From NCBI GenBank assembly GCA_028291515.1, contig JAQGHU010000088.1, positions 124,001-188,000 of the forward strand: a stretch of DNA of 64,000 nucleotides, in the 5' to 3' direction. A program made the position numbers and the translations under genes. The DNA is from Schlesneria sp. (lineage in GTDB: Bacteria; Planctomycetota; Planctomycetia; Planctomycetales; Planctomycetaceae). A model generated the notes under the pieces. It ran no database searches and was not told where the DNA came from. It saw only the letters and a program-made list of their open reading frames with translations. Every line of letters begins with the position of its first letter. Positions within the stretch are counted from its first letter, which is position 1. Below, in pieces: positions 7,010 to 38,108 of the stretch.

Positions 7010-7091
7010 CTTCCACCTTCAACCTGACAGAATTAGCGGACAAGAGACCCTGGGGCCACCAAGGTCTTGCGCAGTAAACAAGGACGTTGAA

Positions 7092-8081
7092 ATGGCTGAC
7101 GCAAAACATCCCTGGCGCATCGCGGTCTTAGCCGGCGGCGATTCCGATGAGCGCGAAATCAGCCTGCAGAGTGGTGCCGCTGTTCAGCAGGCACTTTCAG
7201 CGAGAGGCCATTTTGCACTGCATCTGGATCCCTCATTCGTGGACGTGAAAGGGGTCGATTGGCGCCAATTCGATGTGGCTTTCCTGGCTTTGCACGGTCA
7301 GTTTGGTGAGGACGGTCAGGTCCAGCGTATTCTGGAAGATGCCGGCATTCCCTATACAGGAAGCGATGCCACTGCGTCACGACTCGCGTTTAGCAAGTCG
7401 GCCGCCAAGGAACGATTCCTGCAGTATGGCGTGCCCACTCCCGAATATTCGCTGTTACATTACACGGACGATTTGTCGCGTATCGAACGCATCACCCGCG
7501 AGATCGGTTACCCGCTGGTGATCAAACCGGATTGCCAGGGTTCAAGCTTGGGGATCACGATCGTCAAGTCTCCGGACGCCGTTTCCGCAGCCCTGAAGCA
7601 TTGCTTCCACTTCGATGGCTTTGCTGTCGTCGAGCGAGCAATTATTGGGACCGAGTGGACCGTTGGATTGCTGGATGACATGGTTCTGCCGCCGATTCTG
7701 ATCGAAACGGACCGCGAGTTCTTCGATTGGCAGGCCAAGTACGAAGACGATAACACGCGGTATCTGTTTGATTCATCGTTTCCTTCACACGTCCTGGATC
7801 GCATTGCGGATGTGGCGAAGGACGCCTGTCGTGCGCTGGGAACCCGTGGCATGGTCCGCGTCGACTTGCGCGTCGACGAACAACTGAATCCGTGGCTTCT
7901 CGAAGTGAATACGATCCCCGGTTACACCAGCCATAGCCTGGTCCCCAAGGCCGCTGCTCGCATGGGCATCGAATTCGGTGAACTCTGCGAACGCTCGATC
8001 GAATCGTGCTTGCGGAAGGAACTGCCTCATCCGCATATCTTGCCGAGAACTTCCGTTCGACGCACGGCGAACGACAACTAG
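7092..8081 (+). CDS. ddl: D-alanine--D-alanine ligase
   Basis: Ddl joins two D-alanines using ATP to make the terminal dipeptide of the peptidoglycan stem. The 329-residue protein has the N-terminal GGDSDEREISLQSG motif, FLALHGQFGEDG, the IPYTGSDATASRLAFSKSAAKE segment and the ATP-grasp lysine region YPLVIKPDCQGSSLG. The C-terminal metal-binding part reads LLEVNTIPGYTSHSLVPKAA. Length and motif order are typical of the family. It lies between the secretin-N-like gene and ftsQ in a peptidoglycan/division cluster. Confidence 0.96.
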   Translation: MADAKHPWRIAVLAGGDSDEREISLQSGAAVQQALSARGHFALHLDPSFVDVKGVDWRQFDVAFLALHGQFGEDGQVQRILEDAGIPYTGSDATASRLAFSKSAAKERFLQYGVPTPEYSLLHYTDDLSRIERITREIGYPLVIKPDCQGSSLGITIVKSPDAVSAALKHCFHFDGFAVVERAIIGTEWTVGLLDDMVLPPILIETDREFFDWQAKYEDDNTRYLFDSSFPSHVLDRIADVAKDACRALGTRGMVRVDLRVDEQLNPWLLEVNTIPGYTSHSLVPKAAARMGIEFGELCERSIESCLRKELPHPHILPRTSVRRTANDN

Positions 8082-8200
8082 GTGACGCGGCCGATTCGGC
8101 GTGAATTGCCGAAGAGCGAATGGTCGATTGAAGATCTATTGGCGGTGAGTGCTCGCTGCAAGTCGATCCCCTCTCGATCGTTCGTCGGCAAGAATCGTTG

Positions 8201-9133
8201 ATGTCTCACCCTTCTTCATCACTCAATGACGATCGTGGCGCAGCAAAGCCGCCTCCATTTGCTGCTCGTTTTTTTCGACCGGTCCGATTGGCGAAGTTTG
8301 CCTGCCTGGTCGGCCTTAGCGTCTTCATCCCATATCTCATTCCGCATATTCCAAACCTGGCATCACGCGCGGAATATCGGCTTGAAACCACGAAGATTCA
8401 ACTCAAGCCCGCCATCGAACGTCCTGTTCCCATGGACCTGATTGAACAAGTACGTCGGCAAAGTGAGTTGCCGCACGAGTTGTCATTACTTGATCCCAAG
8501 CTGTGCAAAACGGTCGGCGACGCTTTTGCGAATCATCCCTGGGTGGCAAGAGTGATCTCTGTGCGCCAGTCGTTTCCCGCGGAAGTGGTTGTCGAACTCG
8601 AATTTCGACGACCAGTGGCGATGGTGCAAGTGAAGGGGGGGCGAATCCCCATCGACGCCTTTGGTTTTGTATTGCCCAGCGAAGATTTCACCGTCGCAGA
8701 TGTTTCGCGATTCCCGACGATCCGCATGGCCGGGGCAGGGAACCTCTCTCGAGACGGTGGCCGAATCAACCAGGCGGGATTGATCGGCGCGGGCCGCATT
8801 GCAGAATTACTCGCCCCTTCGTGGTCTCACCTGGATCTCGAGGCGATTGAACTACCTCGAGCGGCAGGGGGAGTGGAACCATCCGACTTGCAGATTCAGC
8901 TACAGTCGAAAAGCGGTTCCACCATCATTTGGGGCCGAGCACCAGGCAGCGACCATCCCGGCGAATTAACACCGGCTCAAAAGTTGGGCCGTCTAGAAAA
9001 GTATCTTGCCGAATATGGCGGATTCGATCGTCCCAGCGGTCCCTATGAAATCGATATCCGCCATTGGCAAGAAATCACGCGGCGACCGGTCGGCAAGGCG
9101 CAAGCCCTGCGAAAAAACAGCCGAATCCGCTAA
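8201..9133 (+). CDS. ftsQ: FtsQ/DivIB-type cell division protein
   Basis: A 310-residue bitopic membrane protein. A cytoplasmic Arg/Lys-containing head is followed by one membrane helix at about residues 33-50 (LAKFACLVGLSVFIPYLI). Then comes a POTRA-like region (LCKTVGDAFANHPWVARVISVRQSFPAEVVVELEFRRPVAMV) and a FtsQ-like C-terminal part. In other bacteria FtsQ links FtsB/FtsL to the divisome. Its place directly after murC, murB and ddl is the classical dcw order and supports the call. Planctomycetes generally lack FtsZ, so its job here may differ. ATG at 8201 is preferred over the TTG just upstream. Confidence 0.82.
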   Translation: MSHPSSSLNDDRGAAKPPPFAARFFRPVRLAKFACLVGLSVFIPYLIPHIPNLASRAEYRLETTKIQLKPAIERPVPMDLIEQVRRQSELPHELSLLDPKLCKTVGDAFANHPWVARVISVRQSFPAEVVVELEFRRPVAMVQVKGGRIPIDAFGFVLPSEDFTVADVSRFPTIRMAGAGNLSRDGGRINQAGLIGAGRIAELLAPSWSHLDLEAIELPRAAGGVEPSDLQIQLQSKSGSTIIWGRAPGSDHPGELTPAQKLGRLEKYLAEYGGFDRPSGPYEIDIRHWQEITRRPVGKAQALRKNSRIR

Positions 9134-20898: not shown

Positions 20899-23031
20899 TT
20901 ATCGTGAGCTGCCCGTCGTTGCTTTGGCGTATCTCGCCAGTGCCATCAAAGGAAAATAGAGGCAGTAATAGTGATACCGCAGGTAGAAGACCCGCGGAAA
21001 TCCAGTCCCTGTAAATTCCGTTTCCGTCCAGGTCCCCTTCGGCTGCTGTGTCGTCAGCAGGTAATCGACACCCCTCTGAACGGCGACGGAATCGGCTTCG
21101 CCTGCCGCGATCAAGCCCAGCAGAGCCCACGCCGTTTGCGAGGCGGTTGGAATGCCGGTCCCTCGCAAGCTGGGATCATCATAACTGCGAGCGGTCTCGC
21201 CCCACCCACCACACGATTGTTGCTTGGCCTTCAACCATTCGACCGCCTTCTTTAGTCGCGGATCACTTGCCGGAATCCCGTTTGCCACCAGACCTACCAG
21301 AACCTGCCATGTTCCATACAGATAGTTCACGCCCCAGCGGCCGTACCAGCAGTGGTCGGGCTGCTGATCGTTCCAGATGAAATCGAGAGCCCGTTTGTGA
21401 ATGCTGCCGTCTGCAGGAATGCCCAGGCCTGCGAATGACTCCAAGACACGGGCCGTAATATCCGACGTGCTCGGATCGATCATCGCATTATGATCGGCGA
21501 ACGGAACCTTCGTCAGGACTTCCCGCGTATTGTCTGCATCGAAAGCCCCCCAGCCACCGTCGCTGCTTTGCATCGACTTCAGCCAACGCACGCCGCGACG
21601 AATCGCATTGACCATCGGTGCGGCCGCTTCCAACTCAGCAATCGCCTTTTCGGCGTTGGCCGAGCGACCGCTGAACACGACGGGACTCTCAGAGTTCTGT
21701 GGAACCGTGCCGCCCGTCTTCGGTTCGTCGAAGATTTCCATCGTCCATTCGCGTCCGGCTCCTTCCGGCAAGCATTTGCCAAGGGCAATCAGTGCCATGC
21801 AAGTGTCATCAATGTCGGGATAGAACTCGTTGTTGTATTCGAAGTACCACCCGCCGGGTTCAACGTTGGGATGCGATAATGACCAGTCTCCGGGATGTCG
21901 CACTTCCTTGGACAGAATCCAGTCAATCGCCTTCCGTATGGCAGGGTCGTGTCGTGACACACCCGCATCACGCAATGCGATCATGGAGATGATCGTATCC
22001 CAGACGGGAGAGAAGCAAGGCTGCAGACGGACCTGCTCGTTCTCACGAATGCAGAGCTTATCCAGCTCCAGCATTTGCTGAACGATCACTTCCGAATCGT
22101 CTTTGTAGCCCAGGCAGCGCAGCCCGATGATCGTCCAGACTATCGGCGGAAAGATCGCGCCCAGACCGTCGCTCATCTTCAGGCGATCCAGAATCCACTG
22201 TTCACACAGCTTGATCGCTCGCTTACGCAGCGGTTTGATTCCCAAGCCTTCGCCAAGCTTGATCGCGCTGTCAACCTTTTGAAAGAACTTCGTCCAGTTC
22301 AACCAGCCGTGTGATCCTTCGTGGTTCACGCCGCCGATAGTGCGCGGCAGCGTCTTCGCTGGAGTTGCGTAAAGCTCGTCAATCTGATGTTCTGGCGGCA
22401 ACTTGGTCTTGGGCTGGCACGCCCACAGCAGGCTAAGTGGGACAATAATCGTCCTCGACCACGACGACATTTCATAGATGTTGAACGGTGCCCACTTCGG
22501 CAACAGGATCATTTCAGGCGGGACCGCCGGACACAGGTCATACGGAATGATCCCCAACATCGCCAAATAGAAGCGAGTGAAGCTGTTGACCTGCTCCATC
22601 CCGCCGGCTCGCAGAATCGCCTCGCGCGCACGGATCATGTAGTCCGCTTTGGGGTCGTGCCCCGTGATCTTCAGAGCCAGATACGCCTTGACGGATCCGC
22701 TGATCTCAATCGGCCCGCCGGGAAACATCGCCCAGCCACCGTGGTCACATTGCTGATCCAGCATGTAGGTGGCACATTCACGTGCCTTTTGCGACTGCCC
22801 TTGCCCCAGGAATGAAAGGAGCAGGATGTACTCGGACTCCAGGATCGTGTCCCCCTGAAGCTCCGCACACCAGTGCCCATCCGCCTGTTGCAGGCTCAAC
22901 AGATGATCGCGAGTTCGCTCAATTGCTGGCGTCAGGCGGGCCGCGAGTAACGCCAGGTCGACAACGTGCCCCTTGGCCGAGGTCACTGCTGCACCACTGT
23001 TCCCGAAAGATCTCATATCACCCGAACTCAT
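20899..23031 (-). CDS. shc: Squalene-hopene cyclase
   Basis: The enzyme cyclises squalene to hopene, the first dedicated step of hopanoid synthesis, at the membrane. The protein has the catalytic aspartate motif DIDDT at about residues 406-410 and several QW-type repeats (QQADGHWCAEL, QQCDHGGWAMF, MQSSDGGWGAFD, QQSCGGWGETA, QQPKGTWTETE). About 710 residues is somewhat above the bacterial norm; an extra stretch of roughly 40 residues rich in charged and Ala residues follows the catalytic motif. The ATG at 23031 is chosen; an in-frame start at 23091 would add 20 basic residues. It lies downstream of a P450 on the same strand. Confidence 0.94.
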   Translation of the reverse strand: MSSGDMRSFGNSGAAVTSAKGHVVDLALLAARLTPAIERTRDHLLSLQQADGHWCAELQGDTILESEYILLLSFLGQGQSQKARECATYMLDQQCDHGGWAMFPGGPIEISGSVKAYLALKITGHDPKADYMIRAREAILRAGGMEQVNSFTRFYLAMLGIIPYDLCPAVPPEMILLPKWAPFNIYEMSSWSRTIIVPLSLLWACQPKTKLPPEHQIDELYATPAKTLPRTIGGVNHEGSHGWLNWTKFFQKVDSAIKLGEGLGIKPLRKRAIKLCEQWILDRLKMSDGLGAIFPPIVWTIIGLRCLGYKDDSEVIVQQMLELDKLCIRENEQVRLQPCFSPVWDTIISMIALRDAGVSRHDPAIRKAIDWILSKEVRHPGDWSLSHPNVEPGGWYFEYNNEFYPDIDDTCMALIALGKCLPEGAGREWTMEIFDEPKTGGTVPQNSESPVVFSGRSANAEKAIAELEAAAPMVNAIRRGVRWLKSMQSSDGGWGAFDADNTREVLTKVPFADHNAMIDPSTSDITARVLESFAGLGIPADGSIHKRALDFIWNDQQPDHCWYGRWGVNYLYGTWQVLVGLVANGIPASDPRLKKAVEWLKAKQQSCGGWGETARSYDDPSLRGTGIPTASQTAWALLGLIAAGEADSVAVQRGVDYLLTTQQPKGTWTETEFTGTGFPRVFYLRYHYYCLYFPLMALARYAKATTGSSR

Positions 23032-23174
23032 TTCAGGTCTCTTCCTTACTCGAATCCTTGAGCCAATTGGAGCTGAGTCAGTGCGGCTCAACTCAACAAT
23101 CGGCTAGATGCTAAGCGTCAAAGTGACTTCGTGCAACCACAGACGGACTTCCGCTGAGTCCCCTCTTCCTTTTC

Positions 23175-24539
23175 TCATCTCGGTGTCAGAGTCGTCATTA
23201 CACCCGGCTTCGGCCTGAGCGTGAATTGAACCCCCATCGTGATGTTCTGACCCGGATCCAAAGTGAATTGAAACCGTTGAGCGATCATTGCCATCGCCAG
23301 AGTCATTTCCATCATCGCAAACGTGTTGCCGATACAAATCCGCGGCCCCGCGCCAAAGGGAAAATAGGCGCAGTGCGGTAGCGTTTTTTCAAAATCATTC
23401 CGCCATCGCTCGGGAACAAAATCATCTGGCCGCTCGAAGTAGCGAGGATCTCGATGAACAACCGTTTCCGGCATCAGGATCGTCGTTCCACGCCGACAGG
23501 GATAACTAGCCACCTCGGTATCAACGAGTGCTTCGCGTCCGACGATAAAGGCTGGCGGATACAGCCGCATCGATTCCAGCACCATCGATTCAGTCTCTTT
23601 GAGTTGTAGTAAATCGTCCGTCGTCGGCGGCCGGCCGTGTAGGACTGTGTCGACTTCTGCATAGACGCGATTCGCCGCCTCAGGGTTCTGCCCGAGCAAG
23701 TACCAGGTCCACGATAAGGCCAGCGCCGTCGTTTCCTGTCCCGCCAGAAAGATCGTCAGGCATTCGTCGCGCAGTTGCTTGTCGGACATTCCGCCCGCAT
23801 TTCCCTCACCACGCGCTGCCAGCAAGCGAGACAGCAGATCGACTCGCTGTTCACCCGAAGCTCGTCGTTGTCGAATGAACCCGTACACGATCTCGTCCAG
23901 GTCCCGTACGGCCCGCAGCAGTCGTCGGTTTCCCGCTGTCGGAAACCACAATGGCAAGTGAATCGGTTGCGCGAGTCGGCGGACGAACTCTTCCTGAGTG
24001 ACATTCAGCGCCGTTCGCACCAGTTCTGCATGCTCATCTCCGTCAGCACCGAATAGCGTTTTGGACGCGATCCCCAGCGTCAACGCCATCATCTCATGCA
24101 ACACGTCGCGGCTCTCACCGGCCTGCCAGCGATTCAGCATCCGTTCGGTATGTTCGACAAACGTCGGCACATATTGAGCGATCTGCCCTTTCGCGAACGC
24201 AGGCTGAGCCAACCGGCGCTGCTGCAGCCAGAAATCGCCTTCGCTCGTCAGCAGTCCGTTGCCGAGGACGACCGGATTCAACCGCAATGCGAAATGCTTG
24301 CGAAACTGTTTCGCCTGAGTCACCAGCACCTGTTCGATCACAGAGGGCTCAGTGACGATCCAGATCTGGCGATAGCCGAACCGCAGGTAAACAACCCCGC
24401 CATACTGTTTCGCGATATCTCGCAGGAACCCGAGTCGGTCCGCTTGAAACGTCGCGAGGTTCCCCCACAACCAATGTCCACGTGGACCCGGTGGGCGGCC
24501 CTTCGATGTGGGGCGAGCAGCGACTGCACCTGTGGTCAC
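23175..24539 (-). CDS. Cytochrome P450
   Basis: A 454-residue soluble-type P450. The I-helix reads FLAGQETTALALSW (about 264-277), the ExxR motif is ESMR at 322-325, PERW follows near 376, and the heme loop is FGAGPRICIG with Cys402 as ligand. Substrate is unknown. It is followed 143 bases later on the same strand by squalene-hopene cyclase, so a role in modifying a hopanoid or other terpenoid is a reasonable but untested inference. No ferredoxin or reductase gene is adjacent. The start gives a Pro-rich hinge (GRPPGPRGHWLWGN) typical of the family. Confidence 0.93.
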   Translation of the reverse strand: MTTGAVAARPTSKGRPPGPRGHWLWGNLATFQADRLGFLRDIAKQYGGVVYLRFGYRQIWIVTEPSVIEQVLVTQAKQFRKHFALRLNPVVLGNGLLTSEGDFWLQQRRLAQPAFAKGQIAQYVPTFVEHTERMLNRWQAGESRDVLHEMMALTLGIASKTLFGADGDEHAELVRTALNVTQEEFVRRLAQPIHLPLWFPTAGNRRLLRAVRDLDEIVYGFIRQRRASGEQRVDLLSRLLAARGEGNAGGMSDKQLRDECLTIFLAGQETTALALSWTWYLLGQNPEAANRVYAEVDTVLHGRPPTTDDLLQLKETESMVLESMRLYPPAFIVGREALVDTEVASYPCRRGTTILMPETVVHRDPRYFERPDDFVPERWRNDFEKTLPHCAYFPFGAGPRICIGNTFAMMEMTLAMAMIAQRFQFTLDPGQNITMGVQFTLRPKPGVMTTLTPR

Positions 24540-24591
24540 GAGTAACGCCCCTGGTTATGAACGACACAACTTGATGCATGTGACATCGCAA

Positions 24592-25557
24592 TCACCATGA
24601 TTCAACGCTCAGCGGATGAGTCGAAACAAACTGCTGCAATTCGTGCGAATTAAAGACTCCCGTCGTGGCCCCCATGCAGCGGACGCAACTCGCCCCCATG
24701 GCGGTCCCCAGTTCCAGGCACTTCCCCAACCCGACACCGCTCAACAGCCCGGAGATAAATCCGGCCACGAACGCGTCGCCGGTCCCCGTCGCATCAACTG
24801 GTTCGACAGGATAGACTCCCGACTTCAATCGTTGCGTCGATGAATTGAGGACTGCTCCACGACTGCCGCAGGTGATCGCGACGGTGCCGGCGCCGAACTC
24901 ACGAAATCGCTGCGTCTGTGTGACGACATCAGAGATTCCATTCAACAACTGAGTCGATTCGTCGTTGTTCGGAAAGAAGTAGTCCGTCCACGGCAGGACT
25001 TCCCGAATCCATCCCAACAGATGATCGCCAGACTCGGGCATGACGACATCCAGTACGGTCGTCACTTTCGCCTCACGCGCCATGCGGAACATCCGAATGA
25101 CCTTTTTGGGCGATAAGCCTTCGAGTAACCCGAAGCCGCCGACATACAGCACTTTAACTGCGGCGATATCCTCCTGCGTCAACTGGCTGCCGTCGTATTC
25201 GGCATTCGCACCCACGCAGTGAATGAATCTGCGATCTTCGCCCGTCACGTTCAGCACAAATGTGCTGCTCGTGGGAGCCGTCTGGCTCATCACCAGGCCC
25301 GAGCAATCGACCTCCGCTGCCAGGAGTCGATCTCGAACTTCGCGACCGAAGACATCTTCGCCAACTCGGCCCGAAACCCCGACGCGCAGCCCCAGTCGCG
25401 CCATGTCGACCGCGACGTTGGAGGCACAGCCACCGATCGTGAATTCGATTCGGTCGGTCCGTGCCAGACTACCCGGTGCCGGTATCCGGGCAATCGGCTG
25501 ACAGACCGAATCGGCGACAATGATCCCGGCACACAGGCATTCGAGCGACACAGGCAT
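24592..25557 (-). CDS. PfkB-family carbohydrate kinase
   Basis: A 321-residue ribokinase/PfkB fold kinase. It has the N-terminal GGCASNVAVDMARLGL glycine signature, GRVGEDVFGREVRDRLL, and the C-terminal DATGTGDAFVAGFISGLLSG with the catalytic Asp and anion hole. These enzymes phosphorylate sugars or nucleosides; sequence alone does not settle the substrate. It lies 44 bases downstream of purB, and 52 bases separate it from the P450 gene, so a shared transcript is possible. Confidence 0.9.
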   Translation of the reverse strand: MPVSLECLCAGIIVADSVCQPIARIPAPGSLARTDRIEFTIGGCASNVAVDMARLGLRVGVSGRVGEDVFGREVRDRLLAAEVDCSGLVMSQTAPTSSTFVLNVTGEDRRFIHCVGANAEYDGSQLTQEDIAAVKVLYVGGFGLLEGLSPKKVIRMFRMAREAKVTTVLDVVMPESGDHLLGWIREVLPWTDYFFPNNDESTQLLNGISDVVTQTQRFREFGAGTVAITCGSRGAVLNSSTQRLKSGVYPVEPVDATGTGDAFVAGFISGLLSGVGLGKCLELGTAMGASCVRCMGATTGVFNSHELQQFVSTHPLSVESW

Positions 25558-25601: not shown

Positions 25602-27032
25602 TCACACACGCAATTCATCGGCGGATTGATCTAGATCTGCAGCATAACGCTGGCGAATCGGCTGGATCACGTCGGTGATAAATGCATCGACCTGCTCAGG
25701 AGCTCGCCCCACAAACCGCTTGGCATCCAATGCCGAAGTGAGATCGACCTTCGCGAAACTGGGGTCGGTCTTCAAGCGAGCCATCAAGTCATTCGGCAGC
25801 CCCTGTTGCTTGACGACCTTCGCCGCCTCCAGGCTATGAATTCGAATCTGCTCGTGTAAATCTTGACGGTCGCCCCCTTCGCGAACACCGGCCATCAGGA
25901 TTTCTTCTGTCGCCATGAATGGCAACTCTTCGTCGAGATGTCGAGCGATCACTTTGGGATATACGACCAGCCCATCAACTACGTTTCGGTACAGGATCAA
26001 AATCGCATCGGTCGCGAGAAACGCCTGTGGAATCGTCAGCCGACGATTGGCACTGTCGTCCAGAGTTCGCTCCATCCACTGCGTTGCAGTGGTCTGAGCG
26101 GCCGATGATGCCAGGCTCATCACGAACCGCGCCAGGCCGCACATCCGTTCCGCTCGCATGGGATTGCGTTTGTAAGCCATCGCCGATGATCCGATTTGAT
26201 TCTTTTCGATCGGCTCTTCCACTTCCTTGCGACTCTGCAGCAATCGCAGGTCCGAGCCTGCCTTATGAGCCGACTGCGACAAGCCCCCCAGCACGTCGAT
26301 CACTTGGGCATCGACCTTGCGGGAATACGTTTGTCCGGTCACGGCATACGCACGGTCGAAGCCCATCTTCTGGCAGACGCGTCGGTCGAGTTCTTCGACA
26401 ATCTTGTGATCGCCATTGAACAGCGACAAGAACGTTGCCTGCGTCCCCGTCGTTCCCTTGGCACCACGCATCCGCAGCGATTCGATGCGATGTTCCAACT
26501 CTTCCAGATCGAGCACGAGATCATAGCACCACAAGGTGGCTCGCTTGCCGACGGTGACCGGTTGCGCCGGCTGGAGGTGCGTGAAGCCGAGGCAGGGCAG
26601 CGCGCGGTATTCCTCGGCGAACTTCGCGAGGCGGTCGATCGTCGAGACCAGCTTTGATCGCAGCATTTCCAGGCCGCGGCGCATCAGGATCAGGTCGGTG
26701 TTATCGGTGACGTAGCAACTGGTCGCACCCAGGTGAATGATCGGCTTCGCGGTCGGACAGATATCGCCATAGGCATGCACGTGAGCCATCACGTCGTGTC
26801 GCAGGATTTTTTCGTGCTTGGCGGCCCGTTCGAAATCGATGTCATCAACGTGCGACTTCAACTCTTCGATCTGAGCCTGCGAGATATCCAACCCCAACTC
26901 ACGCTCGGCTTCGGCCAATGCGATCCACAATTTCCGCCATGTCGAATGTTTCGTTTGCGGAGACCACAAACGGGACATTTCGGTCGAAGCATATCGGCCA
27001 ATCAGCGGGTTGTCGTAAACGTCATGATCCAC
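25602..27032 (-). CDS. purB: Adenylosuccinate lyase
   Basis: PurB acts twice in purine synthesis, releasing fumarate from SAICAR and from adenylosuccinate. The 476-residue protein carries the family signature [20 protein letters not shown], the [12 protein letters not shown] segment with the active-site His, [14 protein letters not shown] and [13 protein letters not shown]. The length fits the longer, eukaryote-like branch rather than the 430-residue type. It heads a minus-strand run that continues with the PfkB kinase. Confidence 0.95.
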
Positions 27033-27158: not shown

Positions 27159-29102
27159 CTACTTCGTCGATGCGGTGCCGACGAGGGAGGCGATGGTGGA
27201 GACCAGGTGATGAGGGTCGATGGGCTTGGCCATGTGGACTTGGAAGCCGGACTGCAGCGCGCGGCGGCGGTCTTCGGGTTGGACGAACGCCGTGAGGGCG
27301 ATGGCGGGGAGAGACTTGGAAGTATAGCCTCGCACGCGGACTTCCCGCATCAATTCAAACCCATCTCGACCGGGCAGGCCCAGGTCGCTGACCAGCACAT
27401 GCGGTTGGAATTGATCGAGTTGAGCCAAGGCCTGCTGGACATCGCTCGCCTCGCGAACTTCGGCGTGACTTTCCGTCAAGATGCGCTTGGTGAGTTTCCG
27501 TGAATCCGGGTCGTCTTCGACGATCAGGACGCGCGTTCCTGTGAGATCGGCCAAGCCACTCAGATGGGCCTGTGGTTCCGATGTACTGGGTTGTTCGAGG
27601 TGAGGCGCGAATTCGGTCGGTAGTGTGACGATGAAGGTCGCCCCTTGTCCCAGGCCATCACTTTCGACGGTGACTTGTCCCCCATGCAGATCGACAAGTT
27701 GGCGGACGATGGCCAGGCCCAGACCCAGGCCACCGTGTTCGCGGGTGCTGCTGGAGTCGCCCTGTTGAAATCGCTCAAAGATTTTCGAGACCAGCTCGGA
27801 AGAGATCCCCTGACCGCTATCGGCAACGCGGATCTCGACGTAGTCGCCGACTTGCTGCAGGCTGACATTGATGTTGCCGCCGTGGGGCGTGAACTTCACG
27901 GCGTTGTTCACCAGATTCCACAAGATCTGCTGAATGCGCGACGGATCGCCTGGAATCAGGCAGCAATCGGGCTGCAGAGTCCTGGTCACGCGGATCGATT
28001 TTTCGTTTGCGGTGTGCTGGATTGCTTTGAGAGCCGCGTCGATCACAGGTGCCAAATCCAGCCGCTCCATATCCAGCCGCAGCTTGCCGGAGGTGATGCG
28101 CGAGATATCGAGCAGGTCGGCAATCATCTGGGCTTGGGCGCGGCTGTTTCGCTCGATGGCTTCCAGGCCTTCTTCGATGTCGGCTGGCGGCAGGTTTCCC
28201 AGACGCAAGACTTGCGACCAGCCGACAATCGCATTGAGGGGTGTCCGCAGTTCATGCGACAACGTCGCGAGGAAGTCGTCCTTCAGACGGTTGGCGCGTT
28301 CTGCTTCCGCTCGCGCGGCACGTTCGCTGAGGAGTAACGATTCCCGTTCGGATTCGTACTGCAGGCGGCCGGAGATATCACTGACGATTGCCAACCGCAA
28401 ATTCGGATCGGCATGCTTGGAGACGTGCCATTCGAGGTGGACGCGATTTCCGTCGGCACGGTGCAGCGGCAGGTCACCTTGCCAGGCAGGTTGTTCGAGG
28501 AGACTGCGTAAGATTTCTTCGACAGCCGAACGATTATCCAGGGCGACCAACTCTTCGATATTTTTGCCCAGAATCTGATCGCGGCCCATGCCGAGCAGTT
28601 CGCACATCCGGGGATTCACGTCGACATAGACGAGATGTTCGTCCAGCAGCGAAACGCCGGTGAGCGCATTGTCGAAGACCGCTTTGAAGCGCGCTTCGCT
28701 CTGACGAAGCTCAATCTCGAACTGCCGTGATCTGAGGAACGATCTGACGGTCGCGATGAGGACGGGGGGCTCAACGGGATGAGTTAAGTAGCCATCGGCG
28801 CCGGCATCCAGTCCGGTGACCTTGCTTTCGCTGCTGACGAAGCTGGCTGACAGGTGCAGGATCGGAACTCGGGACGTTGCTTCTCGTTCGCGCAGCATGC
28901 GGCAAACGGTGAAGCCGTCGATGTCTGGAAGGTTGATATCCAGCACCACCATGTCGACGCGATCTTTTGCCTTCGCCAGCGCTTCGGTGCCGGTGGCGGC
29001 CTCCGTTACCGACCAACCGACACTTTGCAGAATACGCGCGGTCGAGTAGCGGGTGCCTGGATTGTCATCGACGACGAGAATGGTCGTGTCGTTATTTAAC
29101 AT
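27159..29102 (-). CDS. Hybrid histidine kinase, REC-PAS-HK-REC
   Basis: A cytoplasmic hybrid kinase of about 647 residues with four parts. An N-terminal receiver has its phosphoacceptor in VVLDINLPD (about residue 55). A PAS domain follows (about 130-245, FDNALTGVSLLDEHLVYVDVNPRM). A HisKA domain carries His283 in SHELRTPLNAI, and a HATPase domain has WNLVNNAVKF, DSGQGI and GLGLGLAIV. A C-terminal receiver holds Asp573 in LVSDLGLPG. The ATG at 29102 has a GGGAGGA ribosome site and overlaps the stop of the upstream fusion protein by 11 bases, so translation is coupled. It is the last gene of the stressosome operon; no output DNA-binding domain is present. Confidence 0.93.
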   Translation of the reverse strand: MLNNDTTILVVDDNPGTRYSTARILQSVGWSVTEAATGTEALAKAKDRVDMVVLDINLPDIDGFTVCRMLREREATSRVPILHLSASFVSSESKVTGLDAGADGYLTHPVEPPVLIATVRSFLRSRQFEIELRQSEARFKAVFDNALTGVSLLDEHLVYVDVNPRMCELLGMGRDQILGKNIEELVALDNRSAVEEILRSLLEQPAWQGDLPLHRADGNRVHLEWHVSKHADPNLRLAIVSDISGRLQYESERESLLLSERAARAEAERANRLKDDFLATLSHELRTPLNAIVGWSQVLRLGNLPPADIEEGLEAIERNSRAQAQMIADLLDISRITSGKLRLDMERLDLAPVIDAALKAIQHTANEKSIRVTRTLQPDCCLIPGDPSRIQQILWNLVNNAVKFTPHGGNINVSLQQVGDYVEIRVADSGQGISSELVSKIFERFQQGDSSSTREHGGLGLGLAIVRQLVDLHGGQVTVESDGLGQGATFIVTLPTEFAPHLEQPSTSEPQAHLSGLADLTGTRVLIVEDDPDSRKLTKRILTESHAEVREASDVQQALAQLDQFQPHVLVSDLGLPGRDGFELMREVRVRGYTSKSLPAIALTAFVQPEDRRRALQSGFQVHMAKPIDPHHLVSTIASLVGTASTK

Positions 29103-31047
29103 ACCACGGCGTCCTCCCGTCGCCTGTTCTGTCATTCGTTTCTAGATGTTCCGCGCCATCGTAACGCAGCGGAACCGTCACTGAAAACGTCGAGCCCACA
29201 TTCAGTTCACTCTGCAAGGCGACACTGCCGCCAAGCAGTTCCGCGAACTTTTTGCTGAGCGACAACCCCAGTCCGGTGCCGCGCCACTTCCGCTGCGTCG
29301 GCGAATCGATCTGCACGAAGTCTTTGAAGATCGCCTGATGATATTCCGGGGCGATCCCAATCCCAGTGTCGGAGACAGCGAATGTCACTTCATTCTCGCC
29401 CGAGCGTCGAGCGGAAACGCGAATCTCGCCGGCGGAGGTGAACTTTAACGAATTGGAGATGAAGTTTCGCAGGATCTGCGAAAGCTTCTTGTCGTCGGTA
29501 TAGACGCGTGGCATCTCACCGGGTTCTTCCAGGATCAAGGACACGGCGTCATTGACGAGCAGTGGTTTGAACATGCCGCGGATGGCTTCGAAGAGGTCGA
29601 CCAGTTCAAACCAAGCAGGCGAGATGCTGATGCGGCCTGCTTCAATCTTGGCGAGGTCGAGCAAATCATTCACAGTTTCATTCAGTTCGACGGCCGCTTG
29701 CTGGACAAATTTGACTTGCCTGGTCTGTTCGCCGGTGAGGGGGCCGTCCATGTGGTCGAGCAGAATCCGGGCAATACTGCGGATCGATCCGAGCGGCGTG
29801 CGAAACTCGTGGCTCATGTAGGACAGGAAGCGACTCTTCAATTCGGACGCTTCGCGCAGGGCAATCGCATTGTTGTCGAGTTCTGCGTACAAAGCCACAA
29901 CGCCTTGGTTTGTTTCGGCGAGCTCACCGTTCAGGATACTGACCTGTTGCTCAAGCGACTGAATCTGAGCGCGCAGCGATGCATTCTCTTGTTCAAGACT
30001 GGGAGTGTCCGAGGTCATCAGGCCCTCGATCCTATTGCAGGCAGGCGAATCAACAACCACAGTCACATCATCTCGGCCGCGGCAAAAATCACGATAGAGC
30101 ACCGCTGCGATCAGGCCGGGATGCCGTGGCAGCAGTCCGGGATAGTTGTCGAACGACCAGCGCGTTTGCAGTCCATCCGAGTGCAGAATCAGCAACGCCC
30201 CGAGCGGGCATGGGTAATCGAACACTTGTGCTTTGCGGAATTGAATGCCGACGATGCCATTGTGCGAAAACAGCCCCCGCCCCGTGCTACTACCGGGTTC
30301 CCTCACCGATGCTGAGATGTTACCAACACCAGCATATTTCAGCTGCTGACTCTTGGTATCGACCTGCGCCACGGCCAGGGCCGCGCCGCGGGTTCCCTGC
30401 ATCCTGACGTGCAGATTCTCAAACATTGTCGCCAGCGGAAGGAACGGATCACGATCAAATGCCTCGGCTCCTTCGGCGGCGGCATTGGCTGCTTCTGGTC
30501 CATGACCCAAGCCGTCGATAACCAAGACCGAGAGCTGATGATCGCGTTCGCACACGCGCCAGGTATCGCCGCAAACGGTCTCTTGAGGTGCCGGGATATT
30601 GATGGCGCTCCATGTACTGCGGCGTTTGACTACACGCGGGGTTTCTTGTTCACCGACTTGGCAGTAGATCACCGTGCCCGCCGGGACGGCTGAATAGATC
30701 TCAAAAGTCAGGCTCAGCCGCTGGATGGCACCCATTCCATTACCGGGTGTCCCTCCAGTGGAGTAGCCATCGACCAGGCATTGCTGGAGATTGGCAATTC
30801 CAGGACCGCGATCGATCGCGATCACTTCGAGCAACTTTTGATCATTGACGATGTCGGCTCGAACGAGAATTTCTCCCTCTGTGCCGTAGCGAACCAGATT
30901 CGTGGCCAGTTCTGTGACGACCAAGGCGATGCGGCCCCGGCACGTTTCGTCCAATCCATGCTCGTCGGCGATCTTCGTAGCTTGCCGTCGCGCATCGCCG
31001 ATCTGGCTTTGGTCTCGGACCGGGATCCTTAAATGCATCGCCGCCAT
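29092..31047 (-). CDS. Fusion: RsbT/RsbW-like ATPase - PP2C phosphatase - histidine kinase
   Basis: A 651-residue protein joining three modules that are usually separate. Residues 1-135 form a GHKL ATPase of the anti-sigma/RsbT type (ELATNLVRYG, DRGPGI, GNGMGA). Residues about 145-335 form a PP2C/SpoIIE-type phosphatase of the RsbX kind (CGDTW, VIDGLGHG, HSDGLQTR, GRDDVTVVV). A coiled coil (about 350-405) leads to HisKA with His413 in SHEFRTPLGS and a second ATPase domain (NFISNSLKFT, DTGIGI, GTGLGLS). No membrane segment is seen. It follows rsbT with a three-base gap. It probably receives the stressosome signal and passes it into phosphorelay. Confidence 0.9.
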   Translation of the reverse strand: MAAMHLRIPVRDQSQIGDARRQATKIADEHGLDETCRGRIALVVTELATNLVRYGTEGEILVRADIVNDQKLLEVIAIDRGPGIANLQQCLVDGYSTGGTPGNGMGAIQRLSLTFEIYSAVPAGTVIYCQVGEQETPRVVKRRSTWSAINIPAPQETVCGDTWRVCERDHQLSVLVIDGLGHGPEAANAAAEGAEAFDRDPFLPLATMFENLHVRMQGTRGAALAVAQVDTKSQQLKYAGVGNISASVREPGSSTGRGLFSHNGIVGIQFRKAQVFDYPCPLGALLILHSDGLQTRWSFDNYPGLLPRHPGLIAAVLYRDFCRGRDDVTVVVDSPACNRIEGLMTSDTPSLEQENASLRAQIQSLEQQVSILNGELAETNQGVVALYAELDNNAIALREASELKSRFLSYMSHEFRTPLGSIRSIARILLDHMDGPLTGEQTRQVKFVQQAAVELNETVNDLLDLAKIEAGRISISPAWFELVDLFEAIRGMFKPLLVNDAVSLILEEPGEMPRVYTDDKKLSQILRNFISNSLKFTSAGEIRVSARRSGENEVTFAVSDTGIGIAPEYHQAIFKDFVQIDSPTQRKWRGTGLGLSLSKKFAELLGGSVALQSELNVGSTFSVTVPLRYDGAEHLETNDRTGDGRTPWYVK

Positions 31048-31050
31048 GAA

Positions 31051-31455
31051 TCACTTCCAACGGGTAATGGTCACCCGCGTCCCTTTGCCGACTTCGCTGA
31101 CAATATCAAAATCGTTGACCAGACGTTTGGCTCCGGAAAGGCCCATCCCCAATCCGCTGCCACTGGTCCAACCGTCCTTCATCGCGAGGGTCATGTCGGG
31201 AATACCGGGACCCTGATCCTCGAACGTCATCCGTAGTCCTGATTTGCCGCCGTCAATTAAGACTTCGCAGCGCATGGTGCCACCGCCGCCATAGACTACG
31301 GTGTTACGGGCCAGTTCGCTGGCGGCGGTCACCATCTTCGTTTGATCGACCAGGCTGAACTTCAGTTCGACGGCGAGACGACGGACAGCTTGACGGGCCA
31401 CCACCACATCTTGCTCAAGCCGAACGGGCAGCTCCTCACTCTTGACGAGTGCCAT
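31051..31455 (-). CDS. rsbT: RsbT-like serine/threonine kinase (stressosome)
   Basis: RsbT is the switch kinase of the stressosome: it is held by RsbR/RsbS, phosphorylates them on stress, and is then released to act on a downstream partner. The protein has the GHKL ATPase boxes ASELARNTVVYGGGG, DQGPGIPD and GSGLGMGLSGAKRL, and lacks any other domain. The ATG at 31455 gives a 134-residue protein of normal family size (MALVKSEELPVRL); an in-frame codon at 31500 would run into rsbS. It overlaps the rsbS stop by 20 bases and is followed after three bases by the fusion kinase. Confidence 0.93.
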   Translation of the reverse strand: MALVKSEELPVRLEQDVVVARQAVRRLAVELKFSLVDQTKMVTAASELARNTVVYGGGGTMRCEVLIDGGKSGLRMTFEDQGPGIPDMTLAMKDGWTSGSGLGMGLSGAKRLVNDFDIVSEVGKGTRVTITRWK

Positions 31456-31867
31456 AGCCTGCCTCCCCATCATCCGAATGGTGGCTGGCGTTGAGGCCAT
31501 CGCCTTCTTCCGCAGCCCGCTGGGCTCGCAGATAGGCCATCCCTTTTTCGATATTGAGCGCCATTTTCACACCGGGCAAAGACAAACCGAGTTCCACCAG
31601 TGTGATGGCCACTGCAGGTTGCATACCGACGACGACGGTATGGGCGTCGAGAATACGAGACATCCCCGAGATATTGGCGATCATGCGTCCGATGAACGAA
31701 TCGACCATTTCCAGAGCGGAAATATCGATCAGGACGCCGCGGGCACCCGTTCGTTCAATCATGGACGTTAAATCGTCCTGCAGCGTCATCGCCAACTGAT
31801 CATGCATGTCGACTTGGATCGACACGAGCAGGAATTTGCCCATGCGAAGAATTGGAATCCGGTCCAT
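31436..31867 (-). CDS. rsbS: RsbS-like STAS antagonist (stressosome)
   Basis: A STAS-domain protein of 143 residues. The core matches RsbS: IPILRMGKFLLVSIQVDMHD at the start and VLIDISALEMVDSFIGRMIA, with Ser57 in the VDS position that RsbT phosphorylates in Bacillus. A charged tail of about 25 residues (RAAEEGDGLNASHHSDDGE) extends beyond the usual end. It sits between rsbR and rsbT, 13 bases after the rsbR stop, in the canonical order. Confidence 0.93.
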   Translation of the reverse strand: MDRIPILRMGKFLLVSIQVDMHDQLAMTLQDDLTSMIERTGARGVLIDISALEMVDSFIGRMIANISGMSRILDAHTVVVGMQPAVAITLVELGLSLPGVKMALNIEKGMAYLRAQRAAEEGDGLNASHHSDDGEAGYGTRQE

Positions 31868-31880
31868 TGCGTTCCTTCAA

Positions 31881-32819
31881 CTAGTTTGCTGCCTTGGTTC
31901 GAGTGACAGCAAACCCCAGCTTTTTGAGAGCCAGGCTGAGTGCATCGGCCAGATTGGCCTTCGTGGTGACCCCCTGCAGGTCGACACCCAGGTGGACGAT
32001 GGTCTGAGCGATCTGTGGTCGAACGCCGGAGATGATGCAATCGGCACCCATCAGGCGGATCGCCGTGACAGTCTTGAGGAGATGTTGGGCGACCAGCGTA
32101 TCGACGGTCGGAACGCCGGTGATATCGATGATAGCCAGTTCCGCTCCGGTATCGACGATTCGCTGCAGCAGCGATTCCATGACGATCTGAGTACGGGCGC
32201 TGTCGAGCGTGCCGATCATTGGCAGGGCCAGGATCCCATCCCACATCTTGACGACGGGGGTCGAGAGTTCCAGCATCTCTTGCTGCTGCCGGTTGATCAG
32301 ATCTTCGCGGGTCTTCTGAAATGCCGCGATGGTGATCAATCCCATCTTGTCGAGCAGTTCGGTGGCTGCCCAAGTCTCTTCAGCGAATGCTTCGTGGTCT
32401 TTTGCTAGTTCCGCTCGCAATCGAGCAAACAACGGCTGCTTGAACGAGAAGATGAATCGAGCCGTTTCTTCGGAGGTAAAACCCTGCTGGACTCGCGAGC
32501 GTGAAACGTCTTCCAGGAAATCGACTGTCGCGTTCCACGCCTGGCTATGCACATCACCACCTGCGGCGGCCGCTTCACTGAGCAGGACCAGGAATTCTTT
32601 AGTCTGCTCTCGCAGTTGAGATTCACTGATTCGCGAATCCTTACCAGTTCCGGTCGCCTGCAGATTCTTGACCCATTCGGCGGCAAGATCGTCCTGATGT
32701 GCTTTTAGAATCTCTGCGATTCGCGATTTGCGGCATGTCTGTTCCCTGGTTACTCGTGCTGACGACTTCGCCAACGAAACTCGGCTTTGGATGAGTTGAA
32801 TTGCGGTGTGAACGCGCAT
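31881..32819 (-). CDS. rsbR: RsbR-like stressosome sensor with C-terminal STAS domain
   Basis: RsbR proteins form the stressosome core with RsbS. The C-terminal STAS domain (about residues 185-305 of 312) has IIDITGVPTVDTLVA and CIISGVRPQIAQTIVHLG; the threonines in VPTVDT and IAQTIV match the two positions phosphorylated by RsbT in Bacillus RsbR. The N-terminal half is helical and resembles the non-heme globin-like sensor region (EETARFIFSFKQPLFARLRAEL). I chose the ATG at 32819 over a GTG at 32837; the first 30 residues are poorly conserved and the true start could lie further in. It heads the five-gene operon. Confidence 0.9.
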   Translation of the reverse strand: MRVHTAIQLIQSRVSLAKSSARVTREQTCRKSRIAEILKAHQDDLAAEWVKNLQATGTGKDSRISESQLREQTKEFLVLLSEAAAAGGDVHSQAWNATVDFLEDVSRSRVQQGFTSEETARFIFSFKQPLFARLRAELAKDHEAFAEETWAATELLDKMGLITIAAFQKTREDLINRQQQEMLELSTPVVKMWDGILALPMIGTLDSARTQIVMESLLQRIVDTGAELAIIDITGVPTVDTLVAQHLLKTVTAIRLMGADCIISGVRPQIAQTIVHLGVDLQGVTTKANLADALSLALKKLGFAVTRTKAAN

Positions 32820-32994
32820 TATGAGCGCGTGCAACACCCTAAGCTACTTCGACAGCAAGGAAATGCGCTGAATGAGGGAATTAATCGGACACGAAGGAGC
32901 AAGCCGGGAAAGTGAATTAAAAATAGACATTAAGAGTCGCACAATTGTGCGCAACGGCACACGGAGGCTGGCCTGCTATTGGTGCCGTCGGGGA

Positions 32995-35210: not shown

Positions 35211-36959
35211 CTACTTGAGACCCATCACACCGGCAATGTTGCGTAATAAGTTCACTTTGGCAAGGTCGATCACTTCATTGCCGCGACCGCTGAGAACCGC
35301 CTTGATCATGAATAAACCCAGACCACTGATTTGATCAAGTGTGATCGTGAGTGGCATCGAAAGTTCTTGTCGCGTGACGGCGATTTCGACCAGTGCCGGG
35401 CCATCGTGTGCCAAAGCCTGTGCAATCTTGGGACGCACATCCCGCGATTTCTCGACGGTGAGCCCCAGCAATCCCGAAGCGTCGGCGATCTTGGCGAAAT
35501 CAGGATTCTTCAAGTCGGTTCCGAAGTCGAGTATTCCCGCCGCTTTCATTTCCAGTTCGACAAAGCCCAGCGAATCGTTCTTGAAAACAATGGTTTTGAC
35601 GGGCAGGTTCATTTGACGCAGCGTCAACAGATCGCCCAGCATCATCGCGATTCCGCCGTCGCCTGACATGGCGATCACCTGACGCCCCTTGTGACTGGCT
35701 GCGGCACCAATGGCCTGAGGTAGAGCGTTTGCCATCGAGCCATGATTGAACGAACCCATCAACCGTCGCCGACCGTTCATCGTCAGGTATCTGGCGGCCC
35801 AGACAGTCGGTGTCCCGACATCGCAGGAAAAGATCGCATCGCTTGCAGCGAGTTCATCCAGCACCCGTGTGACGTACTGAGGATGAATGATGGACTCGTC
35901 CGCATCTTCAACAGCAAGGTCATTTAAGCTCTGGCGAGCCCTGGTATAGTCGGCCTTGGAGCCTTGCAGATGCTCTTCGTCCTGGTGCTGCTGCAAACGG
36001 GGCAGCAACAACTGCAGCGTAGCCTTGGTATCACCGACATAACCATAGTTGACGTGCGTGCGTCTGCCCAACTGTTCACCGCGCGCATCGATCTGCACGA
36101 CTGTGGCCCCCGTCGGGTAGAATTGCGGATAAGGGAAATCCGTTCCCAGCATCAACAGCAGGCTGCAATTCATCATCGCGTGATAACCGGAGGCAAAGCC
36201 CAGCAGTCCGGTCATGCCGACGTCATACGGATTGTCATACTCGATATGTTCCTTGCCGCGCATCGCATGCACGATGGGGGCTTTCAATCGAGCGGCCAAA
36301 TTGACCAACTCGGCATGAGCTCCCGCGCAGCCGGCACCAGCCAGAATGGTCACGTCCTTCGCATCATTCAGCAGCCCGGCGAGTTCGTCCAATTCCAAGT
36401 CGGACGGTGAAAGATTGGGCTTGGGTTCGGGGAAGCGGCCCGGTAAGATCTTGGACTTCAACTTCTGCATCACCAGATTGCCTGGCAGAATGATCACCGC
36501 GACGCCGCGCTTCGAGAGTGCGGTCTGCATCGCGATGTTCAACAGACGCGGCACTTGATCGGTGCTGGAGATGACTTCGCAAAAATGACTGCATTGAGCG
36601 AAGATGTGTTCGGGGTGCGTCTCTTGGAAGTAGCCTGTCCCCAGTTCTTGGCTGGGGATCTGCGAAGCGATGGCGACGACGGGGACTCGGCTGCGATGGC
36701 AGTCGTACAGGCCGTTGATCAGGTGCAGATTACCCGGTCCGCAACTGCCTGCGCAGACGGCGAGTCGCCCCGTAAGGTGCGCCTCGGCTCCCGCTGCGAA
36801 GGCGGCCGCTTCTTCATGGCGAACATGCATCCATTCGATCGTCTCATGTCGCCGAACAGCATCGGTGATGCCGTTTAACGAGTCGCCCGCCAACCCATAG
36901 ATTCGTTCGACTCCAGCGGAGGCGAACATCTGGACCATCACGTCACCGACCGTTGACAT
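35211..36959 (-). CDS. poxB: Pyruvate oxidase / pyruvate dehydrogenase (quinone)
   Basis: A ThDP- and FAD-dependent enzyme that decarboxylates pyruvate to acetate and CO2, passing electrons to quinone at the membrane. The 582-residue protein closely follows Escherichia coli PoxB: GLAGDSLNGITDAVRR, the catalytic Glu in MHVRHEEAAAFAAG, GSCGPGNLHLINGLYDCHR, MRGKEHIEYDNPYDVGMTGLLGF, the ThDP motif GDGGIAMMLGDLLTL and the C-terminal IKAVLSGRGNEVIDLAKVN lipid-activated tail. Acetolactate synthases share the fold, but the tail and the NPYDVGMTG region favour PoxB. It starts 36 bases after the polyketide synthase stop. Confidence 0.92.
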   Translation of the reverse strand: MSTVGDVMVQMFASAGVERIYGLAGDSLNGITDAVRRHETIEWMHVRHEEAAAFAAGAEAHLTGRLAVCAGSCGPGNLHLINGLYDCHRSRVPVVAIASQIPSQELGTGYFQETHPEHIFAQCSHFCEVISSTDQVPRLLNIAMQTALSKRGVAVIILPGNLVMQKLKSKILPGRFPEPKPNLSPSDLELDELAGLLNDAKDVTILAGAGCAGAHAELVNLAARLKAPIVHAMRGKEHIEYDNPYDVGMTGLLGFASGYHAMMNCSLLLMLGTDFPYPQFYPTGATVVQIDARGEQLGRRTHVNYGYVGDTKATLQLLLPRLQQHQDEEHLQGSKADYTRARQSLNDLAVEDADESIIHPQYVTRVLDELAASDAIFSCDVGTPTVWAARYLTMNGRRRLMGSFNHGSMANALPQAIGAAASHKGRQVIAMSGDGGIAMMLGDLLTLRQMNLPVKTIVFKNDSLGFVELEMKAAGILDFGTDLKNPDFAKIADASGLLGLTVEKSRDVRPKIAQALAHDGPALVEIAVTRQELSMPLTITLDQISGLGLFMIKAVLSGRGNEVIDLAKVNLLRNIAGVMGLK

Positions 36960-36995
36960 GCGACCACCTCCGTGCGACGGGAGAGACTGATCTGC

Positions 36996-38108
36996 TTACG
37001 ATTCGGAGTTCAGCAGCATGGCTTCAATTGTCAGGCCAGGGCCGAACCCGAGCGCGACAACTGGTCCCACCAGTGGTTGCTGCTTCATGTGCTTCAGCAG
37101 AAACAGCACTGTTGCGGATGACATGTTGCCATACCGAGCCAGAACTTCACGCGAACGCATGACATCATCGGTTGAGATGGACAGCGCCGTGACGCAGGCG
37201 TCCAGGATGCGTGGGCCGCCGGGGTGGATGGCCCAACCGCTGATGTCCTGAATTGTCAGCCCTTCTTTGGCGAGGAAATCGACCATCCACGCTCTCAGGT
37301 TTTGCTCAATGAGGGCGGGAACCTTCTGCGAAAGGGTCATTTCGAATCCATGATCGCGGATCCGCCAACTCATCGCACCAAGCGTCTTTGGCAGGACGTG
37401 TGATCCGCTGCGGATCAATTCGTATTTCGAATGAGACGGGATCTGACCAACTGGAGCATTGCGGCAAACCACGGCCGCGGATCCATCAGCGAAAAGTGCG
37501 TTCGCGATCACTTTTTCAGTGGACCAACCGTAGTGATGATGCAGGCTGCAGAGTTCAACCGAGCAAAGCAGCACGACCGCTTTTGGGTCGGCATCGACAT
37601 AAGCTTTGGCAACTCGCAAAGCGTTAAATGCGCCGTGACATCCCATGAAACCAAGGTGCGTGCGTGAGGTTTCCGGCGAAAGCCCCAGTTCCTGAATCAG
37701 GCCAATATCGAAGCCTGGTGCGCTGAATCCGCTGCACGAGACTGTGACCAGATGGGTGATCTCAGCAACATCCTGGTCGGCCTGCGACAGTGCGTCTTCA
37801 CACGACTTCAATGCCAGATTCAGTGCGTGCTCTTCGTACTTCTGCATCCGTTCGCCCGTCGTGGGACCGAAGTCATCCAGATCTCGGCGAGCCCTGAGAA
37901 ACGACTGGTCCTGGCGGAGTTCGTCGACGGGGACATCCAACAACACGGTGCCTCGGTGCTCGACGCCAGCCCCTTGATAGATCAGCTGCATGACTCGGCG
38001 CTGTTCATCTGACTCACAGCAAAGCTCCAGCGTTGTATCATAAGTTGCTGTCTGGGGGGCGCTATAGCGTGGGGAAGCGGTGCCAATCCCCGTCACAATC
38101 ATTGACAT
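36996..38108 (-). CDS. Type III polyketide synthase (chalcone synthase-like)
   Basis: A homodimeric ketosynthase that condenses malonyl-CoA units onto an acyl-CoA starter. The 370-residue protein has the complete triad: Cys157 in LGFMGCHGAFNALRVAK, His295 in WAIHPGGPRILD and Asn328 in YGNMSSATVLF. The GFGPG loop is present near the C-terminus (LGFGPGLT). Products of bacterial enzymes include alkylresorcinols and alkylpyrones; the chain length cannot be read here. An AAGGAA site eight bases before the ATG lies within a TTCCTTAAGGAA palindrome. No methyltransferase is adjacent; pyruvate oxidase and an ABC exporter follow. Confidence 0.94.
   Translation of the reverse strand: MSMIVTGIGTASPRYSAPQTATYDTTLELCCESDEQRRVMQLIYQGAGVEHRGTVLLDVPVDELRQDQSFLRARRDLDDFGPTTGERMQKYEEHALNLALKSCEDALSQADQDVAEITHLVTVSCSGFSAPGFDIGLIQELGLSPETSRTHLGFMGCHGAFNALRVAKAYVDADPKAVVLLCSVELCSLHHHYGWSTEKVIANALFADGSAAVVCRNAPVGQIPSHSKYELIRSGSHVLPKTLGAMSWRIRDHGFEMTLSQKVPALIEQNLRAWMVDFLAKEGLTIQDISGWAIHPGGPRILDACVTALSISTDDVMRSREVLARYGNMSSATVLFLLKHMKQQPLVGPVVALGFGPGLTIEAMLLNSES

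Follow-up and report, generated by a model that had tools for sequence, protein, structure and literature searches.

The window examined in this work is a stretch of 64,000 nucleotides of the planctomycete Schlesneria sp. (assembly GCA_028291515.1, contig JAQGHU010000088.1, positions 124,001 to 188,000), and its subject is a stressosome operon on the minus strand, at positions 27159-32819. The five minus-strand open reading frames (ORFs) that the original prediction had placed there were all present, and the unit is best treated as six genes: rsbR, rsbS, rsbT, an ATPase-phosphatase gene, a histidine kinase (HK) gene, and a hybrid kinase gene. The features are the following:

31881..32819, minus strand: rsbR, RsbRD_N sensor and STAS domain (Pfam domains, matches to solved chains).
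31436..31867, minus strand: rsbS, a lone STAS domain with the conserved Asp-Ser (Pfam, match to solved RsbS).
31051..31500, minus strand: rsbT, a switch kinase of the GHKL type whose ATP site is intact (Pfam HATPase_c, residue alignment).
30058..31047, minus strand: GHKL ATPase domain and SpoIIE/RsbX-like PP2C phosphatase (Pfam, comparison with the congener G012).
29833..30012, minus strand: conserved coiled-coil-like linker, with the window form ETNQGVVALYAELD..., immediately N-terminal to HisKA (linker alignment).
29092..30018, minus strand: linker-HisKA-HATPase_c histidine kinase (Pfam, comparison with G012).
27159..29135, minus strand: REC-PAS-HisKA-HATPase_c-REC hybrid kinase (Pfam).

Among chains of solved structure, the best match of the rsbS product was RsbS (E 3e-30), and the rsbR product matched 7o0i_B, deposited as an anti-anti-sigma factor (E 4e-34), and chains named RsbR (about 3e-33). 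These matches are far beyond chance and the operon is real. Each of the four solved matches of RsbT was to an anti-sigma F (SpoIIAB) chain, at E about 1.5e-6, so its name rests on the operon position and on family models. The SpoIIE gene (RsbX-like PP2C) comes directly after rsbT and carries an additional GHKL domain on the same protein; the best solved matches of its G012 copy were 3zt9 and RsbX 3w40. Proteins with HisKA and REC domains lie directly downstream of the phosphatase domain. The conserved Asp-Ser of RsbS we take to be the Ser59 site. Since the intergenic gaps are short or negative, the genes are likely cotranscribed. It had been stated that no sigma factor, RsbU, RsbV, or RsbW was to be seen, and within the operon the ORF list and Pfam agree; RsbU_N (PF08673) was detected neither in the five proteins of the operon, to which the search within this genome was confined, nor in the HK of G012. 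Two starts need comment. The rsbR ORF has an ATG at 32819 and the listed ORF begins earlier, with a GTG at 32837; compared with G012 there are two length changes upstream of the sensor domain, nine bases in total, between which the first codons (window about 32730-32820) are in another frame, and because of this shift the true rsbR start is uncertain. An internal ATG about 16 codons into rsbT is also a plausible start, which would cut the overlap with rsbS.

The fourth ORF of the operon (31047-29092) reads HATPase_c_2, SpoIIE, HisKA, and HATPase_c, and on this basis a fused ATPase-phosphatase-kinase had been described. The operon DNA is 90% identical between the window and G012 (locus L021), where the same region holds two genes, one for the phosphatase (7018-8046, 342 aa) and one for the kinase (8043-8981, 312 aa), with a 4-bp overlap. 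A one-base length difference, located within the last dozen or so phosphatase codons, joins the frames in the window; an in-frame nine-base gap lies after it, and apart from this gap and two cancelling one-base gaps at the kinase end, the window and G012 do not differ further in length from rsbS to the operon end. Phosphatase and kinase were fused in none of the 94 loci examined, 81 of which hold both domains. As a natural architecture the fused protein was therefore given up on the G012 layout and the absence of fusion in those 81 loci, and on the same grounds it was rejected as the ancestral state. That the fusion is real, with ATPase, phosphatase, and HK on one polypeptide and resetting coupled to output in one chain, is improbable: the window ORF does stay open across the junction and the one-base difference is outside any long homopolymer, but the two overlapping genes of G012, the 81 unfused loci, and a junction DNA near-identical to that of G012, read there in another frame, speak against it. 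The joined frame would come from a sequencing error or from a very recent fusion, two origins that only reads would distinguish.

The distribution of the module was followed by scanning the linker alignment against genome contigs, which gave at least 593 stretches, of which the best 80 were kept; the set of loci was chosen by linker and by rank and is hence biased. Family models were grown from the kept loci, and 67 of the 80 had at least 4.2 kb of upstream sequence. RsbR, RsbS, and RsbT were found within 4.5 kb, on either strand, in 66 of these 67 loci, and in 64 the strict order R-S-T-phosphatase-kinase was kept on one strand; the rsbRST genes are turned round in L038 and rsbR in L060. The GHKL-PP2C gene was present in all 67, and in all 67 an RsbT-like domain, here called RsbT', precedes the linker in the kinase ORF. 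The gene after the kinase starts with REC in 65 of 80 loci and has both REC and HK in 61; in 13 neither domain shows, some of these being at contig ends. The linker-kinase ORF itself bears a receiver in 71 of the 77 ORFs that do not run off the contig. The linker-picked loci belong to eight phyla: Cyanobacteriota, Acidobacteriota, Pseudomonadota, Planctomycetota, Gemmatimonadota, Myxococcota, Rokuibacteriota, and Binatota. The rsbRST order, proposed for comparison among planctomycetes, was thus conserved and is not specific to them. With the linker-HK in at least 6 of 392 planctomycete genomes and the module in eight phyla, a planctomycete-specific operon was rejected.

Planctomycete counts are lower bounds, with a maximum of 10 (RsbS) and 15 (linker) candidates scored per genome. 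RsbS (E up to 1e-15) was found in at least 12 of the 392 genomes and both elements together in three (G000, G021, and G285); the three further genomes with the linker have the kinase at a contig edge, with only the phosphatase end upstream, and G037, which has an RsbS match, is cut by the contig end. Four planctomycete RsbS loci without the linker, those whose downstream ORFs were scanned, have different neighbours there: a sigma-54 activator and a TPR protein in L029, RsbU_N-PAS-PAS in L031, an ORF without match in L032, and PAS-HK-REC in L033. Two of them, L031:7741-11223 (with RsbU_N-PAS-PAS) and L029:3658-7549 (with the sigma-54 activator), are RST-phosphatase loci, although a separate rsbT ORF is absent from the overlap-filtered ORF list of L029. 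In the phylum to which the cyanobacterium G442 belongs, RsbS (alignment A4) was detected in 9 of 194 genomes and, excluding the centre genome, nine RsbS loci lie in eight genomes. Six of the nine (L163-L168) have the full RST, the GHKL-PP2C, and the RsbT'-linker-HK, two of these kinases being without a receiver; L169 and L170, both from G532, have an RsbU_N-HK beside RST and PP2C, and L171 has an HK without RsbU_N just upstream. L170:4319-8043 is also a stressosome locus in which two tandem rsbT-like genes accompany the RsbU_N-histidine kinase.

The kinase slot of the operon takes three N-terminal forms: RsbT'-linker, RsbU_N, and the bare linker of the window. In each of 82 loci RsbT' was closer by score to the RsbT model than to the ATPase-domain model, and in a FastTree tree of 80 sequences the three families were each monophyletic, with supports of 0.89, 1.0, and 0.99. 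The linker marks the module: of 50 genomes that were selected because they contain it (4-64 candidates scored in each), 49 gave a single match to the linker model, and the fiftieth, G486, gave a second one at E 6e-5. By direct reading, the hydrophobic spacing that precedes the linker motif fits a coiled coil. The kinases of the window and G012 are without RsbT' and without the receivers that most relatives have. In an alignment of 34 chosen rows, only the G012 linker has Gln for the Arg after Thr-Asn, and its first part is shorter by three residues; by reading, the window shares both features. We infer that RsbT' was probably lost in the window lineage. Among the open-access papers listed, by title and abstract opening, we found no description of the set formed by the GHKL-phosphatase and the RsbT'-linker-kinase, nor of an RsbT-like domain fused to an HK linker.

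The catalytic residues of the stressosome core are well conserved. The RsbR STAS region has Thr at three positions in 74, 76, and 75 of 76 loci, and the RsbS Ser is present in 77 of 78, the remaining one being a gap. Of eight ATP-site residues, RsbT keeps all in 78 of 78 loci, and the ATPase domain next to the phosphatase keeps seven in every one of 79 loci and the last in 78 of them. RsbT' is less strict: it has the N-box Asn in 69 of 82 loci and the G1 Asp likewise in 69, and in some species it would therefore probably serve for binding.

The wiring of a stressosome to an HK phosphorelay is already in print, and the window operon is a variant of it. Heinz et al. (2022; PMC9237108) listed HisKA/REC downstream modules for globin-type stressosomes, most of them without RsbU_N, in a survey confined to globin-type RsbR. 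These modules, among them Vibrio D1/D2, share with the window the RST genes, an RsbX-like phosphatase right after RsbT, two-component proteins next, and no SigB. They differ in that the window RsbR has RsbRD_N instead of globin, its phosphatase has an N-terminal GHKL domain where the one described in that text is a single-domain PP2C, and its HK has a specific linker, to which relatives add the RsbT-like domain. With the Bacillus subtilis sigB operon (rsbRSTUVW-sigB-rsbX) the locus shares the RST core and the RsbX-type phosphatase; RsbU, RsbV, RsbW, and SigB are missing, with kinases in their place. RsbU_N-bearing histidine kinases have been noted in rsbT operons (PMC12143880) and are also HKs beside RST with an N-terminal element adjoining the linker, but the window HK lacks RsbU_N and its relatives have RsbT' there. 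The RsbK-RsbY system of Bacillus cereus likewise ties a hybrid HK to general stress control of the PP2C type; as far as its description goes (PMC3999984), it has no adjacent rsbRST and its kinase acts upstream of the phosphatase.

Taking into account the gene order and its conservation, the operon is, on balance, probably a stressosome signalling module with a histidine phosphorelay as output. Two histidine kinases had been proposed as the output, and this is still the best reading, because HKs, and not RsbU, RsbV, RsbW, or SigB, follow the stressosome and the order is conserved; what does not stand is the fused form of the first of them. The contacts and the direction of signalling that we infer would be as follows. 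RsbR and RsbS would form a sensor scaffold that retains RsbT, the switch kinase; when a signal arrives, this kinase would phosphorylate RsbS and RsbR and then depart. Free RsbT would engage the dimeric linker of the adjoining HK and alter its autokinase activity, a step likened to the ordering of the RsbU linker by RsbT in Bacillus. The HK would pass phosphate to the hybrid kinase and onward through a further carrier, and the ATPase-phosphatase would dephosphorylate RsbS and RsbR to reset the system. In most relatives the HK has its own RsbT' beside the linker, the window lineage having the bare linker. In B. subtilis, free RsbT binds the N-domain and linker of RsbU and orders a coiled coil (PMC12143880), and two kinases of the cyanobacterium G532 carry RsbU_N, a known RsbT-binding domain, in the same slot. 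On the simplest reading, the kinase would be the target of RsbT, with the linker as the shared point of control.

Several observations weigh against this reading. In Vibrio, RsbT was assayed against the downstream kinase D1 and no positive interaction is reported (PMC9237108). L086 has the phosphatase and the kinases and no rsbRST in the preceding 4.3 kb, and in 8 of the 12 planctomycete RsbS genomes there was no linker match at 1e-6. The loci were selected via the linker, so its own conservation is biased. Moreover, RsbT' may be the real partner of the linker; the window lineage, being without RsbT', three linker residues, and an Arg, could possibly have lost the action of RsbT. A more specific idea takes RsbT' into account: the six genes would be a cross-phylum module in which an ancient duplicate of RsbT, RsbT', was welded to the kinase linker, RsbT in trans and its cis mimic would gate the kinase by exchanging with each other, and the window lineage would be a natural deletion of the cis copy in which RsbT alone reads the linker. 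We hold this idea only tentatively, as it is doubtful on the present evidence; if true, RsbT would be a general activator of HKs through a coiled-coil linker without RsbU_N.

Other explanations for the output of RsbT were also considered. RsbT could act on the downstream kinase by Ser/Thr phosphorylation in a transient contact, instead of docking on the linker, a mode which has been proposed for kinases without RsbU_N (PMC9237108) and with which the invariant ATP site of RsbT is consistent. Since that active site is needed for RsbS and RsbR anyway, its conservation does not discriminate; the precedent for RsbT action in PMC12143880 goes through RsbU_N and a linker, and we regard the phosphorylation of the kinase as rather unlikely. 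It is less probable still that the kinases are the input, with the phosphorelay tuning the stressosome or the phosphatase as RsbK does on RsbY: a hybrid kinase of B. cereus can activate a PP2C phosphatase (PMC3999984) and the hybrid kinase of the window has its own PAS domain, but the window phosphatase bears a GHKL domain and no receiver, the kinases come last in the gene order, and RsbU_N occupies the same slot at the two G532 loci.

Least probable, and in our opinion very unlikely, is that the main partner of RsbT lies elsewhere in the genome, as an RsbV/RsbW-like pair or an RsbU-type phosphatase. A sigma-B/RsbW pair elsewhere in the genome had been raised as a possible main partner. A genome-wide search gave no sigma factor above the SigB/F/G cut-off (TIGR02980; best 126 bits versus 234). 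An RsbV/RsbW-like pair of a STAS and a HATPase_c_2 protein is present on contig C46 (L036:7750-8812), which favours a partner elsewhere; the lack of a sigma factor above the cut-off and the conserved adjacency of rsbT to the kinases argue against it. On contig C19 of the same genome (L035:3126-7798), a PAS-HK-REC-REC-Hpt hybrid kinase is followed by a fusion of REC with an RsbW-like ATPase and by a STAS protein, which makes a second connection of a phosphorelay with partner switching, apparently one that runs the opposite way.

The question addressed by the HK output is how stressosomes reach two-component systems in bacteria without SigB, given that for most of the downstream kinases surveyed in PMC9237108 no RsbT-binding domain was found. 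The module offers a concrete candidate for the contact of RsbT, the linker, which lies beside rsbT in 66 of the 67 testable loci, and the bare-linker HK of the window makes it a testable question how RsbT reaches a kinase without RsbU_N. A comparison of the three N-terminal forms would reveal whether RsbT gates kinases via the linker; if it does not, this is one more stressosome operon.

The first receiver of the hybrid kinase is atypical. In the window (28731-29087) it has His where receivers usually have Lys, and across the modules 62 of 64 have another residue in place of the Lys (Gln 37, Glu 11, His 9, others 5), while the phospho-Asp is retained in all 64; on its own alignment the count of Lys is 0 of 63, two cells being alignment-dependent. 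All 50 of the last receivers compared have the Lys. At that column, where the alignment is less sure, the linker kinase mostly lacks Lys in its second receiver as well. It had further been argued that another phosphotransfer protein must exist. There are 12 Hpt domains in this genome, three of them in small ORFs of 123, 154, and 167 aa, and G012 likewise has 12; congeners that lack the operon have 3-15, so the counts do not track it and the claim gains nothing from them; at the level of domain counts, and not of individual orthologs, no co-occurrence of Hpt with the operon was seen among the genomes of the genus.

By homologs of the fusion protein, the operon is carried by 2 of 15 genomes of the genus, this one and G012. 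Between them, the ratio of nonsynonymous to synonymous substitution rates (dN/dS) is 0.048 for both the HK and the hybrid kinase. The phosphatase and the three genes rsbR, rsbS, and rsbT give 0.12-0.23, and the gene next to the operon at 25602-27032, presumably purB, gives 0.018. The values of the operon genes indicate purifying selection, and from that of the HK it follows that the bare-linker HK is maintained. A quick tree was built with 49 of 79 rows; loci lacking one or more of four segments had been excluded beforehand, and the 30 rows dropped in thinning were mostly cyanobacterial and from Caballeronia. The window and G012 are paired there, with a long branch leading to them (0.94). Five label changes are required by the nine planctomycete rows, so they form more than one clade; shuffling the labels required more (mean 8.4, with 1 of 500 shuffles as low), and no more than 1 change is forced by the well-supported branches. 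The spread of the module may reflect transfer or loss.

A flanking ABC permease has homologs 59-65% identical in seven congeners, with short flanks without rsb genes; as G012 has a second copy of the permease, also at 59%, these may be paralogs and an empty site is not established. Around the operon, at 20899-25557 and 35211-38108 of the window, there are genes for a squalene-hopene cyclase, a cytochrome P450, a PfkB kinase, a TPP enzyme, and a type III polyketide synthase, possibly of secondary metabolism.

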